A stretch of 30,863 nt of DNA from a virus. This document shows, piece after piece, positions 13,331 through 28,714 of this stretch. Numbering within the stretch: the stretch's first letter is position 1; each line of letters opens with the position of its first letter. The translations under genes and the position numbers were made by a program. Location: positions 1 through 30,863 of IMG/VR virus record IMGVR_UViG_3300044712_001618. One strand, given 5' to 3'. Below the pieces are notes generated by a model that made no database searches, had not been told where the DNA came from, and saw nothing but the letters and a program-made list of their open reading frames with translations.

Positions 13331-16300
13331 TGCCGGTTCAATCAGCTCCGAGGTCCGCATCAAGCTCTCTGCCCTAAGCTCGGACATCGCCGCATGCAGG
13401 ACTGCCTTCGATAATCTCGGGAAAGAGTTCTCGGACAAGGCGGACAAGTACTCGACCCTCGCGAATAAGTCCTACGTCAACGCATTGAAGGGCGTGGCAA
13501 AGGAGACGAAGAACGTCGAGGCTGCGACGAAAGCGGGGGCGCTTTCCGAGCGGGAGGGAATCCAGCGGCTGATTGATCTACGCCAGACAGAATTGGCTGT
13601 GCTCCAGAAACGCGCGATCGCCGAACAGGGTACAAATGCGGCGACCATCTCGGCCATCAATAAAACGAACTCCGCGATCACCGCGTTGAACGAACAGCAG
13701 CGGTTGCTTGGTACAACGTCTCTGTCCTCGGGCGAGAAGTTGAAAAATATGTTCGCCAGCATGCGCGACGTCATGCAGGGCCCGGTAGCCGCGTTTAGCA
13801 TGGTGAAGAATATTATCGCTGGAATAGCTCGCGACGTTGACGCCTATATCATGAAAGCGTCTGCGATGGAGAAGGCGCAGGCAATTTTAAAATCAACGCT
13901 TGCCGCAACCGGCGCCTCTGCTTGGACAAGCGCGGCCAAGTTGAATGAATACGCCGAAGCAATGGCGAAGGCCACTCTTTTCGAAGACGACCAAATAACC
14001 GACATGCAAAACGTCCTCCTCGGATTCAAAAACATCCAAGGTATCAATTTCACGAAGGCGAGCGATGAAATCCTGAACATGGCTACCGTCATGAAGATGG
14101 ATTTAGCCAGTGCCGCACAAGCCGTAGGGAAGGCGCTCGATGATCCAATAGAGGGAATTAATTCCCTAACTCGCCAGGGCTTTAGGTTCTCAGACGAACA
14201 GAAAAAAGTATTGAAGGTTATGGTTGAAACGGGCGATATTGCGAGCGCTCAGAATATAATCATCAAAGAACTCTCGACTACCTACGGCGGGGCGGCGGTT
14301 GCGGCTGCGAATAATGCGACCGGATCATACATAAATATGAAACAATCGCTTGCCGATCTTGGAGACCAGATTGGAGTATTGCTAGCTAATAGCGCGGACT
14401 GGAAAGGATTCGGGGAATTCGTCAATAAGATAGCTGATGGCGTTGATCGATTAAATAAAATAGGTGCCTCGAAAAACAAGCTCGCCGATCTTCAAGCCCT
14501 CATGTCTACGCGCGGGTTCAAGAATTTAAGCCTACGGCAGCAAAGCGAAGAAATATCAAACATTGGTCTTTCAATTGATGAAGCGGGATCGGCAATCGTT
14601 ATTCTTGATGACAGAATCAAGGAGTTAAAAAAATCTCAAAGCACACCATGGGGTTGGAACGTTCAGGGCCAGAAAGAAATAAAAGACCTCGAAGCTCAGA
14701 AAAAAGGCATCGAGGGAGTCATAGATGTGTTGAGAGTTGCCAATGATGTGAAGGCAGCAAGCACTTCGGCTTCACAAAAAGCCGCAGAAGCAGAAAAAAA
14801 ACGAATAGCAGATGAAGCACTTCGCATTGAGTTGTTAAAAAAATATAAAGACCTACAGAAAGAAAACGCAGACCAGGCCAAGTCTATCATCGATGGCCAG
14901 AAAAACGAATCAACAAAGCTCTATGAGCAATATGTAAAGCTCGCGGCGACTCCCGCCGCAAATGGAGAACTTGAGAAACAACGTCAGGAAGCGCTAAAGA
15001 TTCTATCTCGTCTCATGGAAGAAGCAGCCCTCAAGGAAATAGCGGACGCAAAAAAGGTCGCGGAAGAGAAAAATAAACTAGATCAAGCGACGTTCGATAA
15101 GGCGCTCAGCGATCAGGCGGATGCCGATATAAAAAGGCTCGCCATGGAAAGATCATATCTTACCGGACTAGAAGGCCTTGATACTGCCGCCTTAAAAGCA
15201 AGAGCAGCCGCAAGAAAAAAAGCCTTAGGATTAGAAGGTAATGACGATGAGGCGGCACTGAAAAAAAAGCTCGACTCATTAAAATCCTATTCCGATATGG
15301 CCTTGAATATCCTAAACGCCATCGCTGATCTGGTAATTGAGAACGATAAACGAGAACTCGATAGCCATATGGACGCTCTCGAAAAGCGCATAGAGGCCGA
15401 AGAAAATGCATACGACGAAATATATGAAAATCAAACCAAAGCGGCTGAGGATGCATACGACGCGCAGACTAAAGCGGCTGAGCGCGCTTATCAGATCCAG
15501 CGCGAAGCGGCTGAGGCAATGTACTCCGGCCAGATGGATGCGCTTGAAGAGTGGTATCAACTCAGCCAAGACCTTATTGAATATGATGGCCAGACGAAAA
15601 TGGAATCGCTCCAGGCTCAGCTCGATAAAGCGCTTGCCGATGGCGATACTCAGAAAGCCGCAGACCTACAAAAAGAAATCGATCAAATAAATCTCAAGGC
15701 TGAATACGACGCGAAGAGGAAACAGCTTGAAGATACACGGAGGGCCGAAGAGGCAGCGGCAGAGAAGCGATATAGCGAAGAAAAAGAAGCGCGCGACCGG
15801 GCAAACGATGAAGCGAAGGCTGCCCGCGAAAAGGCTAACGACGACGCGAAGGCGGCGCGCGAAAAGAAGAATCTCTACGACAAGGCGATGCTCGAATATA
15901 AATACGCGAAAACGAAGTGGGGCTGGGATCTTACTTCGGCGATCGCGAACGCGGCGCTTTCGACGCTCAACGGGTTTCTCACTCAGCCCTTTGTCCCGGC
16001 TGGTTTAATAGCTGGATCTTATGCCGCGGTAATTGGCGGCCTCCAGATCGCCTCTGTCGCAGGGGCGCAGCCTCAGCCCCCAGCCATGGCAACCGGTGGA
16101 CTCGTCCTACCTTCAGGTGGTGGATCCGGTACTCCTGTCATAGCCGGAGATCGCGGCGGCGGCGACATCATGTTCGGCACGAGCGCTATGGGCTCGCCGC
16201 TCATGGACGCCTTTGCAGACCTTGTTGCTTCGAAGGTCGCAAGCCAGACCGGACCTGGATTTATTACCGTGCAGTCAATACTCGACGGCAAGGTCGTCGC

Positions 16301-23638: not shown

Positions 23639-23950
23639 TTAGAAGAAGCGGGCCGCCCCGTCCTTCTTGATCATGACCGACTCCTGGCTGAGCTCGGCCT
23701 TGATCCGGCCGGCAAGCCGCTCGATCAGCTCATCGTCCGGGGTTTCGTAGCAGGCCTCGATCAGGTAGACCCTCTCCTCGATCCTCTCGCCAGAATCGGC
23801 CAGGTAACCGCCGGTCCCGACGACCTCGGTATAGCCGCCGAAAGCCTTGGCCAATGCGGCCTTAACATCGGCGCGGATGGCGTCGACCACGGCGGTCGGG
23901 GCGATCCGGTTGAAAACGGTGGTCGGGATCACGATCAGGTAGCTCTGCAT
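23639..23950 (-). CDS. Small hypothetical protein, first gene of leftward cluster
   Basis: 103 residues from ATG at 23950, which has AAGGAG seven bases upstream; an ATG further out at 24016 lacks an SD and overlaps the promoter. A strand-helix-strand pattern is seen: SYLIVIPTTVFN, a helix VDAIRADVKAALAKAFG, a Gly-rich turn (EVVGTGGYLADSG) and RIEERVYLIEACYE, ending with a helix. The layout is like small alpha-beta families such as DUF3574, though I cannot confirm this. A strong promoter lies 54 bases upstream of the start and a terminator just after the stop, so it should be the best-expressed gene of the cluster. Confidence 0.65.
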   Translation of the reverse strand: MQSYLIVIPTTVFNRIAPTAVVDAIRADVKAALAKAFGGYTEVVGTGGYLADSGERIEERVYLIEACYETPDDELIERLAGRIKAELSQESVMIKKDGAARFF

Positions 23951-24003: not shown

Positions 24004-24033
24004 AGTATAGGGCCAATGGCCCTAAGTTGTCAA
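24004..24033 (-). promoter_or_regulatory. Leftward sigma70-type promoter with a palindrome in its spacer
   Basis: Read leftward, TTGACA (24033-24028) and TATACT (24009-24004) are separated by 18 bases, close to consensus. The spacer holds the inverted repeat listed next. The promoter drives the four small leftward genes. Transcription would start about 45 bases before the first gene's ATG. Confidence 0.8.
24009..24023. repeat. Perfect inverted repeat (operator candidate)
   Basis: AGGGCCA and TGGCCCT are perfect reverse complements around one A. The repeat lies between the -35 and -10 boxes and touches the -10. A protein bound there would block RNA polymerase, so it is a strong operator candidate. 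It differs from the GTCGGCAA sites of the phage switch, so a second repressor (perhaps host-encoded or the HTH protein of this cluster) is implied. Confidence 0.6.
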
Positions 24034-24311: not shown

Positions 24312-24567
24312 CGTGCACAGTGAGCGAAAAGCTCGAATTGAGCGCGGGATAGTGGGCTTATAAATCGTTCGCTAGAAAACAAATACCGGTATATAAAAGA
24401 ATTGGATCAGTTCCTACTGGTCTGCCTTCTAAGCAGCAGGTCGGGGGTTCGAGCCCCTCTGGTCGCGTTTCGTAAATAACGGCCCATAAAAGAAATAGAG
24501 CTAGAAACGGGCCGGATTGAGCGCGGCCGGGTTGACGATGTACCCGGGAAAGTGCAGGAATTCCGGA
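24312..24567. other. attP region (noncoding)
   Basis: 256 bases without a supportable gene. They contain the 3' half of a tRNA-Arg gene (24421-24467), AT-rich stretches with TATATAAAAG, two ATAAAAGAA copies, two GCTAGAAA copies and repeated motifs like ATTGAGCGCGG (24337 and 24516) that may be integrase or bending-protein sites. A weak promoter-like pair (TTGAGC at 24338, TATAAA at 24359, spacing 15) could serve the integrase. It adjoins the integrase gene, as phage attachment sites do. Confidence 0.75.
24421..24467 (+). other. tRNA-Arg(UCU) 3' fragment, attP core candidate
   Basis: Anticodon loop CTTCTAA (24426-24432, anticodon TCT) is followed by GCAGC, variable AGGTC, a T arm GGGGG / TTCGAGC / CCCTC (one G-T pair), then acceptor 3' strand TGGTCGC and G. 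No CCA is encoded. The upstream 30 bases do not form the matching D arm or the acceptor strand GCGACCA, so this is not a whole tRNA. Such a 3' fragment beside integrase is the usual identity block by which a phage restores the host tRNA gene on integration. Confidence 0.75.
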
Positions 24568-25836
24568 ATGCGCATCCCGTCGCCCTACACGATCCGCCGC
24601 CGGCCCGACAACGGCACCTGGCAGATCACGCTCACACGCGCGACGGGGCTGCCGCGGGAAGCCTGGGCCGCATGGGACCGCCGGGGGTTCGTTCGGTTCC
24701 CGGTGGAGCTCGCGCAATTCCGTCGGCCGACGTCCGAGGGGCAGGCCCGCCGCGGCGCTCTCGCGCTTATTGAGTATCTACGGCGCAACGCGGGGACGGC
24801 GCCCGGAGGTGGATCCACGGTCGGCGCCTGGATCCGGCTATTCCTGGAGGCCGATACGTCGCCGCGGGCCGCGCGCCTGGTCGCCGCCAACAGACCCTAT
24901 TCCCCTAGCACCCTCGCCAACTACCGCAACATCTTCGCAGTCCACCTCGAGGGCGACCCTATCCTCGGCTTCGCCATGTCCGAGATCTCCCAGGACGACA
25001 TCCTCGCGGCCCTGGGCCGGATTGCGCTTCACCCCGTCCTGACCGGCCGGCCAAAGAAGGGCGCTACGGCCGGGAAGGCGAAGCGGGGGAGAACTATGGC
25101 CGGGACGCGCGCCTTCGAAGCCGTCTTCTCCTTCATCCGGATGACCTTCCGCGAATACCAGATGGGTCACCCTCGATGGGTGGATCCGTTCCGATCCATC
25201 GAGCGCCCGAAGGCGACGCAGCGACGGACCAGGACCGGGCTTGAGGAAGCGGAGGTGGCCAAGCTCTTCGCCCCCGGGATCCTCGCGGATGAGATGGAAC
25301 GCGCCGTCGCCGCGGGGATGTTCTGGGCAGGCCTTCGTCGATCGGAACTTTTCGGGCTCCAGCCTGACGATCTCGACTGGAAGGCCCAGACGATCCACGT
25401 CCGCCATGCCTGGAAGCGTTTCGACTCTCCTGGGTTCCGCGAGCTCGGAGACCCAAAGCACCACAAGCTCAGGGACGCTCCCTTCCCCGACATCTTCCAA
25501 TCCGCCCTCCGCGCGCTTTGGAAGACCCACGGAAAGCACGAATTTGCTTTAGCCTACGCCGACGGTAGCCAGCCGTCCCCGCGCATGTTCGCCTCGATGT
25601 TTCGACGATGGGTAAAGGCTGCGGGGATCGATCTCAATGGCCGCAAGATCACCCCACACTCGGCCCGCCATTCGCTTGCGTCGGTCCTGGAGGCCCAAGG
25701 CGTTCAGCTTCGATACATCCAGGAACTGCTCGGGCATTCTGACCTGAAGACGACGAAGGGCTATCTCCATACCCCACAAGACGCGATCAATAAGATTACG
25801 AAGGCGATAGAGAAAAAGACGAAGGGGAAGCCTTAA
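24568..25836 (+). CDS. int: Tyrosine integrase
   Basis: Site-specific recombinase that inserts the phage at a tRNA-Arg gene, 422 residues from ATG 24568 (AGGA eight bases upstream). An N-terminal arm-binding/core-binding part spans about 1-190, and the catalytic domain runs from about 210. Catalytic residues are visible: Arg257 in AGLRRSEL, His364 and Arg367 in HSARHS, His390 in LLGHSD, and Tyr399 in KGYLH. The Lys of the beta-hairpin is probably in PKHHKLRD. The set is complete, so it should be active. Upstream lies the tRNA fragment; a strong terminator follows. Confidence 0.96.
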   Translation: MRIPSPYTIRRRPDNGTWQITLTRATGLPREAWAAWDRRGFVRFPVELAQFRRPTSEGQARRGALALIEYLRRNAGTAPGGGSTVGAWIRLFLEADTSPRAARLVAANRPYSPSTLANYRNIFAVHLEGDPILGFAMSEISQDDILAALGRIALHPVLTGRPKKGATAGKAKRGRTMAGTRAFEAVFSFIRMTFREYQMGHPRWVDPFRSIERPKATQRRTRTGLEEAEVAKLFAPGILADEMERAVAAGMFWAGLRRSELFGLQPDDLDWKAQTIHVRHAWKRFDSPGFRELGDPKHHKLRDAPFPDIFQSALRALWKTHGKHEFALAYADGSQPSPRMFASMFRRWVKAAGIDLNGRKITPHSARHSLASVLEAQGVQLRYIQELLGHSDLKTTKGYLHTPQDAINKITKAIEKKTKGKP

Positions 25837-26878: not shown

Positions 26879-27400
26879 TTATTGTTTTGTAACCGTAATT
26901 GTATAGTAATCCTCAGCTGTCCCGGATTGAATACATAATAAAATTATAACACTTGGTGAATTGATGGGATTCATCATCCATCCAGATCCATAGGTTCCGC
27001 AACTATAATACGGTTGTCCAGAAGAAAATAAATCTATATTGAAGTTACCCTTGGCTGGAATAACTGTAGCATTCATAGGTCTCGAAGCTTCTATATATTT
27101 CTGCCCAGTAATGAACGGGGTGTAGGAATTGCCGTTATAGGATAGAGAAGAACTTTCCCATACCAATTTAATAATCTTATCAGAATTATTTTTAACATTA
27201 AGTTCAAATCCAGATATACCTTCAGCCCAGGCAAAGAATGACTTACTCTGCCATTCTGTGGTTATGGCGATCTCGGCAAGACCGGTATCATTTTCAGATG
27301 TAATTGTCGAAGTAAAATTAGGCGGAGGAGTATTCTCTACTGAAAGGCAGGACGTTAACGACGCGACGATAAAGAGAGCAGCTATTATCTTTTTCATCAT
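26879..27400 (-). CDS. Signal-peptide lipoprotein, probable lysogenic cargo
   Basis: 173 residues, reverse strand. The N-terminus MMKKIIAALFIVASLTSC is a classical lipoprotein signal: two Lys, a hydrophobic core and lipobox LTSC with Cys18, so the product should be lipidated. The mature part is beta-rich (GFELNVKNNSDKIIKLVWESS, then SYNGNSYTPFITGQKYI), resembling small beta-sandwich lipoproteins of unknown function. It has its own promoter and no structural role, so it may protect the lysogen from other phages or alter the cell surface, as phage lipoproteins such as Cor and Llp do. AT-rich, co-directional with the P63C gene eight bases downstream. Confidence 0.75.
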   Translation of the reverse strand: MMKKIIAALFIVASLTSCLSVENTPPPNFTSTITSENDTGLAEIAITTEWQSKSFFAWAEGISGFELNVKNNSDKIIKLVWESSSLSYNGNSYTPFITGQKYIEASRPMNATVIPAKGNFNIDLFSSGQPYYSCGTYGSGWMMNPINSPSVIILLCIQSGTAEDYYTITVTKQ

Positions 27401-27513
27401 TTCCCCGTTTTCAATTATTCATAGTCGGCCGCGCGGTCGGCATCCAATTATTTTTAATTATGAATTGCAGGATTTTACATTCTCCCCAATTTTTAGACGC
27501 ACCTGCGAGGCTC

Positions 27514-27553: not shown

Positions 27554-27961
27554 CTAGCCATACGCCTGGGGTTTTGATTCCGCCGCTAATTGTCCTTTGC
27601 TTCTCTCGAGATCTGCAGCCGATTTAACGGTCATCGCCATTATTCTCAGGAAATCGTCGTTGACGTATTCCAGATCGGAGACGATCTCGGCGATCCTGGA
27701 CGGTGGTTTCCATTTCGCGCCGTGGCGGCCGGCCCAGTCGATGACGTAGTCGCGGCCGTGGTCACCGTCGGCAATTTCTTCTACGGTTACTCCGTACGCA
27801 TAGGCAATCCCAATGGCGTCGTGAACGTTCGGTATGCTTTTCCTTTTCTGGTCAAACCAAGAATAAACTCTTGCCCTAGGATATTTTGTCTTTTCAATGA
27901 GATTGGCCGGAGAGTCTCCCCGAACCGCTAGTAGTTTCCGAATTCCTCCCATGAAGTCCAT
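27554..27961 (-). CDS. XRE-family phage repressor (CI-like, no peptidase domain)
   Basis: 135 residues, reverse strand, diverging from the early operon. Residues about 5-65 form a helix-turn-helix domain of the XRE type: SPANLIEKTKYPRARVYSWF, then IPNVHDAIGIAYAYGVTVEEIADG. The C-terminal 70 residues are helical (RIAEIVSDLEYVNDDFLRIM) and may dimerise. There is no S24-type Ser/Lys autocleavage domain. The three phased operators upstream are its expected targets. The SD is weak (TAGGC) and a possible TATTTA -10 close to the ATG suggests near-leaderless mRNA, as for lambda cI. An internal Met4 could also start. Confidence 0.8.
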   Translation of the reverse strand: MDFMGGIRKLLAVRGDSPANLIEKTKYPRARVYSWFDQKRKSIPNVHDAIGIAYAYGVTVEEIADGDHGRDYVIDWAGRHGAKWKPPSRIAEIVSDLEYVNDDFLRIMAMTVKSAADLERSKGQLAAESKPQAYG

Positions 27962-27972
27962 GTAGCCTAAAT

Positions 27973-27988
27973 ATCGTCATTTGCCGAC
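27973..27988. promoter_or_regulatory. Operator A (imperfect)
   Basis: ATCGTCATTTGCCGAC matches the palindrome GTCGGCAATTGCCGAC at 13 of 16 positions, with a perfect right half TTGCCGAC. It is the operator nearest the repressor gene start, so it probably controls the repressor's own promoter. Confidence 0.65.
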
Positions 27989-27996
27989 GAAAAGTC

Positions 27997-28025
27997 TTGA
28001 CAAGTCGGCAAGGTTAGACTAAGAT
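27997..28025 (+). promoter_or_regulatory. Rightward early promoter (PR-like)
   Basis: TTGACA (27997-28002) and TAAGAT (28020-28025) are separated by 17 bases, a near-consensus pair. It drives the AbrB-like gene and the early operon. The spacer is almost exactly filled by operator B, so repressor binding would exclude RNA polymerase. The start point would lie near 28032, inside or just before operator C. Confidence 0.85.
28004..28019. promoter_or_regulatory. Operator B (between -35 and -10)
   Basis: GTCGGCAAGGTTAGAC has a perfect left half GTCGGCAA and a partial right half, keeping the outer GTC/GAC pair (11 of 16 positions of the full palindrome). It sits precisely between the -35 and -10 boxes of the rightward promoter. 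Confidence 0.65.
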
Positions 28026-28035
28026 GGCCCTATCG

Positions 28036-28051
28036 GTCGGCAATTGCCGAC
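28036..28051. promoter_or_regulatory. Operator C (perfect palindrome)
   Basis: GTCGGCAATTGCCGAC is a perfect 16-base palindrome, so probably the highest-affinity site. It lies across the expected transcription start and leader, just ahead of the SD at 28056. Spacing to operator B is 32 bases and from A to B 31 bases, three helical turns each. Confidence 0.75.
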
Positions 28052-28064
28052 AACTGGAGGGGCT

Positions 28065-28250
28065 TTGGATAATCTGGTTCGGATCAAAACCTATCGAATC
28101 GGGCAGAAAGGAAAGCGCGGCTTCTCTCTTTCGATCCCAAAAGCATGGATGGAAGACCATGGAATCAACGCCGGGGATGCCGTTGACCTATTCCAGGATA
28201 CCGAAGGGGACTTGATTTTAAGGCCCCGGAAGATTGAAGGCGCGGCATGA
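28065..28250 (+). CDS. AbrB/SpoVT-like small DNA-binding protein
   Basis: 61 residues from TTG 28065, with GGAGG four bases before; an upstream TTG at 28044 lies in operator C and has no SD. The reading VRIKTYRIGQKGKRGFSLSIP, then KAWMEDHGINAGDAVDLFQD and GDLILRPRK follows the swapped-hairpin AbrB plan (strand, S-I-P-K-x-W, helix, G-D-x-V-x, L-I-L-R-P). It is the first gene of the early operon, in the place where Cro sits in lambdoid phages. It may bind DNA and counter the repressor, though AbrB-like domains also act as antitoxins. No toxin gene is adjacent. Confidence 0.7.
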   Translation: MDNLVRIKTYRIGQKGKRGFSLSIPKAWMEDHGINAGDAVDLFQDTEGDLILRPRKIEGAA

Positions 28251-28714
28251 CCACCAAGCAGATTGCCGAATCCGTAGCAAGAACTGACCGGGCCGTCCGA
28301 GGATGGGTGAAAGACCTTGCGGAAAAAAATGCCGTAGTTGCGGAAAAACTTTCCGCAAGCTCGCCTATGGCTCCCGCCGATTGGAGCCTAGAGGAAACCC
28401 TGGCCATCATCGCCGAAGGGATGGGGCCCGAGGCCGCAGCTCTCTACCGGGACAACGCGACGAAGGAAGCCCTGCCCCGCGTCATCATCTTACAGCCGAA
28501 GCTGCCGCCCGCATCACAACTCCGCGAGCTCCGGATCATGGCCGCTGACCGGACCATCACCCCGGCGCAGGTTCAGCGCGCCCTCGGGTTCCTCCCGGAC
28601 CCTCCGGCCATCGAAGAGCCGAAGGCGACGGCAGAGGAAGCGGCGAATAAACTCGGGCCGGTAGCGGAGAAAATCCGGGCTATCGCGTCGGATGCGGCTA
28701 GGGGAGCGGCATGA
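28247..28714 (+). CDS. HTH-containing phage regulatory protein
   Basis: 155 residues, ATGA-coupled to the AbrB-like gene. The N-terminus MTTKQIAESVARTDRAVRGW looks like a helix-turn-helix, followed by a helix with a repeated L-A-E-K unit, then SLEETLAIIAEGMGPEAAALY and an Ala/Glu-rich C-terminal tail. Proteins with this N-terminal HTH and LEETxAIIxxGMG-like segment occur in phage early regions and are thought to be regulators. The gene contains a perfect nine-base inverted repeat and an extra half-copy (28316-28358). Function not certain. Confidence 0.65.
   Translation: MTTKQIAESVARTDRAVRGWVKDLAEKNAVVAEKLSASSPMAPADWSLEETLAIIAEGMGPEAAALYRDNATKEALPRVIILQPKLPPASQLRELRIMAADRTITPAQVQRALGFLPDPPAIEEPKATAEEAANKLGPVAEKIRAIASDAARGAA
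28316..28358. repeat. Inverted and direct repeat inside the HTH gene
   Basis: TTGCGGAAA (28338-28346) pairs with TTTCCGCAA (28350-28358) around AAC. A second direct copy, TTGCGGAAA, starts at 28317, 21 bases before the first. The direct copy follows a seven-residue repeat in the protein (L-A-E-K), but the inverted copy is not required by it. It may be a binding site for the protein that the gene encodes, or a chance hairpin. Confidence 0.5.

Follow-up and report, generated by a model that had tools for sequence, protein, structure and literature searches.

The region from 27973 to 28051 of the window, a stretch of 30,863 nucleotides of viral DNA (IMGVR_UViG_3300044712_001618) that was analysed at its full length, is likely to serve a temperate tailed phage as the operator region of its lysis-lysogeny (immunity) switch, with sites to which a divergently encoded, putative 135-residue repressor would bind. 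A first-pass annotation had proposed operators around an early promoter beside such a repressor gene, and this reading is supported by the clustering of the motif, a promoter match that is rare in the genome, the gene order, and relatives that carry different regulators together with different repeats. The feature is real and correctly located, and it is very probably an ordinary kind of switch. The unusual and interesting part of this otherwise ordinary arrangement is an AbrB-type protein in the place of Cro.

Candidate Operators Surround the Early Promoter

Three sites related to the 16-bp sequence GTCGGCAATTGCCGAC, none of them assigned to a strand, are located at 27973-27988 (O1), 28004-28019 (O2) and 28036-28051 (O3). 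Upon recounting, these coordinates as well as the match numbers of 13, 11 and 16 out of 16 given in the first-pass annotation proved correct. The putative grading of affinities corresponds to these match numbers. O3 is a perfect 16-bp palindrome, the half centres of which, GTCGGC and GCCGAC, are 10 bp apart and thus separated by one helical turn, a distance that a helix-turn-helix dimer usually spans. O1 (ATCGTCATTTGCCGAC) consists of a right half matching at all 8 positions and a left half matching at 5 of 8. O2 (GTCGGCAAGGTTAGAC) harbors the exact half-site GTCGGCAA at 28004-28011, and the 3/8 matches of its right half are no more than expected by chance (P ~0.35 for at least 3 of 8). The set is therefore best described as a perfect palindrome (O3), a good dyad with halves of 8/8 and 5/8 (O1) and, in the promoter spacer, a single exact half-site (O2); the earlier claim of three related operators holds for O3 and O1, but has to be reduced to a single exact half for O2. 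The distances of 31 and 32 bp likewise hold when measured between site centres. Their interpretation as three helical turns is arithmetically sound (31/10.5 = 2.95; 32/10.5 = 3.05), but with two intervals the phasing is suggestive at best. A fifth exact half-site of the region is present on the plus strand within the repressor coding sequence (27767-27782; 11/16), where its significance is doubtful.

Promoter scans of the plus strand revealed the -35 hexamer TTGACA at 27997-28002, followed after 17 bases by the -10 hexamer TAAGAT at 28020-28025. The early promoter with the middle site in its spacer is thus present as annotated before, with O2 covering 16 of the 17 spacer bases (28003-28019). 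Sequences of the form TTGACA-N15-19-TANNNT occur only twice in the 44.7-kb genome, the early promoter being one of them. From the spacing, transcription is predicted to start near 28032, which would place O3 within the early transcript at about +5 to +20, while O1 is located 12-27 bp upstream of the start codon of the repressor gene. For the latter gene, promoter scans did not reveal a recognisable sigma-70-like promoter.

The putative repressor gene is an open frame on the minus strand (27554-27961). On the plus strand, the Shine-Dalgarno-like sequence GGAGGGG (28056-28062) precedes the TTG start of the first gene of the early operon (28065-28250), which encodes the 61-residue AbrB/MazE/SpoVT-type DNA-binding protein. 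It is followed by a second early gene (28247-28714, plus strand), the 155-residue product of which has an N-terminal domain common to the loci L010, L011 and L051. According to the gene order and the open frames, the repressor gene and the early operon share one operator region, and in the complete genome the operon continues rightward into DNA-metabolism genes, the functions of which were judged by eye.

Since O3 falls into the predicted leader, upstream of GGAGGGG, and folds into a 6-bp stem with an AAUU loop, we considered whether the palindrome is chiefly an RNA hairpin that controls stability or translation of the early mRNA, the other copies being incidental. This appears improbable. The leader fold is unremarkable (z -1.4; 18 of 200 shuffled sequences fold as well), two more exact half-sites are located upstream of the transcription start, where early mRNA is absent, and the repeats found in the same slot of L011 are direct and form no hairpin. 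A search against Rfam yielded no match.

Half-Sites Cluster in the Complete Genome

A second contig, IMGVR_UViG_3300042876_000717, is 99.7-100% identical to the window over its full length. It comprises 44,843 bp with a terminal repeat of 127 bp, which indicates a circular genome of 44,716 bp, and this near-identical contig made it possible to scan the complete genome. The genome-wide motif search proposed in the first-pass annotation yielded six exact copies of GTCGGCAA on both strands, four of which lie within 71 bp (27981-28051), and no other cluster. Four copies in 80 bp were obtained in none of 300 shuffles. When the choice of the motif was left free, no 8-mer of the genome other than GTCGGCAA reached four copies in 80 bp, and none of 100 order-2 shuffles contained such an 8-mer. 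The clustering of half-sites over the early promoter thus exceeds chance, as is to be expected of a switch.

These numbers also bear on the trivial explanation that a random palindrome happens to lie near a promoter and is accompanied by unrelated partial matches. Taken singly, neither the palindrome nor the weakest site is remarkable, as the genome contains three perfect 16-bp palindromes and 33 windows matching at 11/16 or better. Nevertheless, the four exact half-sites in 80 bp, absent from both sets of shuffles, and their position exactly in the gap between the repressor gene and the early operon leave next to no room for coincidence.

In 2.9 million viral contigs the exact 16-mer was found in 20 stretches. 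Among these, a second related site nearby was observed solely in the same phage, and nearly all others were situated inside long open frames; the operator was thus not seen elsewhere in this collection. As the second copy is identical phage DNA, the operator set represents one independent sequence, which does not permit a footprint by conservation.

A Putative Helix-Turn-Helix Repressor Faces an AbrB-Type Protein

The 135-residue protein matched no Pfam or NCBIfam family, and none of these and the other searches placed it in a family at a significant E-value. It showed a weak match to PHROG 18342, annotated as transcriptional repressor (E 0.0056). Relatives in viral contigs were confined to the same phage, none were found in genomes, and searches of phages and plasmids yielded none of use. 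Structure prediction without an alignment (pLDDT 50-57) gave five N-terminal helices with low confidence, and the non-significant Foldseek matches of this model include DdrO, HigA, SinR and many Cro/C1-type helix-turn-helix proteins. In our judgement, the order of motifs R-x5-RGDS...LIEK...RVYSWF...SIPN...IA..YGVTVEEI reads like an XRE domain. The model and these motifs suggest that residues 1-65 probably form an XRE/CI-like helix-turn-helix, followed by a helical C-terminal part. An S24 peptidase (autocleavage) domain was detected by neither Pfam nor NCBIfam.

The 61-residue protein matches Pfam PF04014 (MazE_antitoxin/AbrB) with an E-value of 8e-10 and 39 bits at a cut-off of 24.7, and the AbrB domain TIGR01439 of NCBIfam with an E-value of 9e-6, just below the cut-off. 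By these profile matches, it is classified as a member of the AbrB/MazE/SpoVT family. A toxin-antitoxin pair of the MazEF type was rejected, as the products of the neighbouring genes at 28247-28714 and 27554-27961 match no toxin family in Pfam or NCBIfam. We found no paper on an AbrB-type Cro in the literature searched, the partial coverage of which makes this weak evidence. If the protein works as Cro, it would widen the set of folds known for this role.

Given this family assignment, the GTCGGCAA sites might mainly be autoregulatory operators of the AbrB/MazE-type protein, with the 135-residue protein binding elsewhere or to some of them only. The AbrB-type protein is indeed the only neighbour with a significant match to a DNA-binding family, and O3, the best site, directly precedes its gene. 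However, O1 adjoins the other gene and O2 is situated in the promoter spacer, the usual places of sites for a lysogenic repressor. Moreover, the two divergent regulators in L051 are paralogs (52% identity), an argument for operators that are shared rather than reserved for one of the two proteins. We therefore regard this reading of the sites as unlikely and favour sites that serve the divergent repressor. It is conceivable, though less likely than not, that the XRE-like repressor and the AbrB-type protein, despite their unrelated folds, both recognise the GTCGGCAA half-sites and are competitors at the early promoter.

In the mechanism that we infer from the sequence with regard to binding, the identity of the binder, the order of affinities, autoregulation and what the AbrB-type protein does, the early promoter (27997-28025) would drive the rightward early operon. 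A repressor dimer would bind to O3 just past the transcription start, to the half-site 28004-28011 of O2, and to O1 by its own start codon. The occupied sites would keep RNA polymerase off the early promoter, and O1 would allow the repressor to adjust its own synthesis. The AbrB-type protein, which takes the place of Cro, probably acts on this region as well and promotes the lytic course. As no S24 domain was found in the repressor, induction would have to proceed differently, for example through an antirepressor. Possible hints in this direction are a Bro-N domain in the relative that the second early gene has in L051 and a P63C-domain protein encoded left of the repressor gene, the C-terminal part of which matches an antirepressor PHROG.

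Relatives Carry Different Regulators and Repeats

Distant relatives of the second early gene are present in L010, L011 and L051, and the one in L051 is fused to the Bro-N domain, which is of the antirepressor type. The gene following the second early gene likewise has a counterpart in L011 (36% identity over 70 residues). Upstream, the regulators differ. The Cro-slot gene of L051 encodes a ribbon-helix-helix protein (PF01402, E 5e-5, above the cut-off), and the small divergent gene opposite is its ribbon-helix-helix paralog. The Cro-slot gene of L011 is RHH-like (PF07878, E 0.006, below the cut-off), and the small divergent gene opposite was judged RHH-like solely by eye. Four TGTGAGTYAAT repeats are present in the gap of L011, three of which are spaced by 10 bp and fill and follow the spacer of TTGACA-N17-TAATGT, and the gap in L051 contains GTGTTA/TAACAC repeats around TTGACA. 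That different regulators, together with different repeats, occupy the same slot before a related gene supports the view that the immunity switch can be exchanged. No other independent evidence supports the operator reading as well as this. The cassette would have been swapped as a unit, with a helix-turn-helix and AbrB-type pair in one phage and ribbon-helix-helix pairs in others, upstream of a related early gene.

A relative of 39.8 kb, G002 (L044/L045), encodes a terminase that is 99% identical and has no aligned counterpart of ~26991-31055, nor of the integrase region. Since this contig ends exactly at the immunity region, the missing repressor gene and sites are uninformative as such. The alignment nevertheless suggests that the immunity module and the module of the integrase region have been exchanged or are variable. 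A terminase query returned no match in genome contigs, and no close relative was present in the public phage collection searched. For this lineage of uncultivated phages, the region provides a switch that is compact and can be tested.

Within the second early gene, we observed inverted repeats at 28313-28362 (TTGCGGAAA-AAC-TTTCCGCAA) plus a third copy, and L051 and L011 contain different inverted repeats at the matching place. RNA folds were more stable than those of shuffled sequences in three of the four loci (z -3.9, -2.0 and -3.3), and L010 showed none. The repeats could be a binding site within the protein's own gene or an RNA element.

Comparison with Known Switches

The likeness to the lambda right operator put forward in the first-pass annotation extends to the presence of three related dyad sites within a single divergent promoter region that separates the repressor gene from the Cro-slot gene. 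It fails with respect to the spacing, the place of the best site and a counterpart of OL. The OR sites of lambda are ~23-24 bp apart, in contrast to 31-32 bp here, and the best site here is located downstream of the predicted transcription start. Unlike lambda, which has tripartite operators at both OL and OR, the complete genome scan did not reveal a second, OL-like operator cluster. Furthermore, a full dyad of the lambda type was not found at each of the three sites, as the other half of O2 matches at 3/8 positions, and the repressor lacks the S24 domain of a lambda-type CI in the family searches.

The layout resembles that of mycobacteriophage BPs more closely. For the 33-34 intergenic switch of BPs, experiments have demonstrated a repressor of 136 residues together with one operator within the PR spacer and another by the repressor gene (PMC4557955). 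Both phages have a short divergent repressor, putative here (136 versus 135 residues), a gene in the Cro slot, a palindromic operator or candidate operator between the -35 and -10 elements of the rightward promoter, a second operator or candidate site near the repressor gene, and variable second half-sites. They differ in the operator itself (12-bp CGACATATGTCG in BPs, 16-bp GTCGGCAATTGCCGAC here), in the number of regulatory regions (five versus one cluster), in the attP, which is inside the repressor gene in BPs and likely ~3 kb away here, and in the AbrB type of the Cro-slot protein.

A regulator of the AbrB type at such a position has a precedent in the AbrB-like protein C68 of the archaeal plasmid-virus pSSVx, which binds to the DNA separating its own gene from a divergent gene of the CopG type (PMC5569661). 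Both are small swapped-hairpin proteins of viral elements, the genes of which are opposite a divergent regulator gene. However, pSSVx is archaeal with a CopG-type partner, whereas here the promoter is of the bacterial type and the partner helix-turn-helix-like. The CI/MOR switch of TP901-1 is comparable as a short divergent switch in which the product of the Cro-slot gene cooperates with CI or opposes it (PMC7250872). Its operator layout differs, and neither for MOR nor for CI was a relation in sequence found.

Integration Region and Further Regulatory Regions

Left of the repressor gene, profile matches identified a tyrosine integrase at 24517-25836. Beside its start, the sequence 24430-24500 is similar to the 3'-half of tRNA-Arg(TCT) and, as seen by eye, is the probable attP. 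The integrase together with the probable attP is consistent with a temperate lifestyle.

Between the P63C gene and the repressor gene, the minus strand encodes a small protein (26879-27400) that matches a lipoprotein signal (LPAM_1, E 0.006), possibly a lysogenic conversion gene. The signal is a hint at a bacterial host. Just upstream of the start of this gene, at 27424-27441, there are two more copies of GTCGGC (GTCGGCCGCGCGGTCGGC), which are not full half-sites.

The only other promoter of this form in the genome, of the TTGACA/TATACT type, is located at 24004-24033 on the minus strand, with the dyad AGGGCCATTGGCCC in its 18-bp spacer. The gene that it precedes is DUF3574-like by a weak match (23639-23950), and the promoter is conserved in G002. 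Outside the window, at ~15814-16117 of the complete genome (L012), we observed a second divergent regulator region with a small RHH-like gene, opposite which the promoter TTGACT-AGGGTATATACCTGGTA-TATAAT contains the palindrome GGTATATACC in its spacer.
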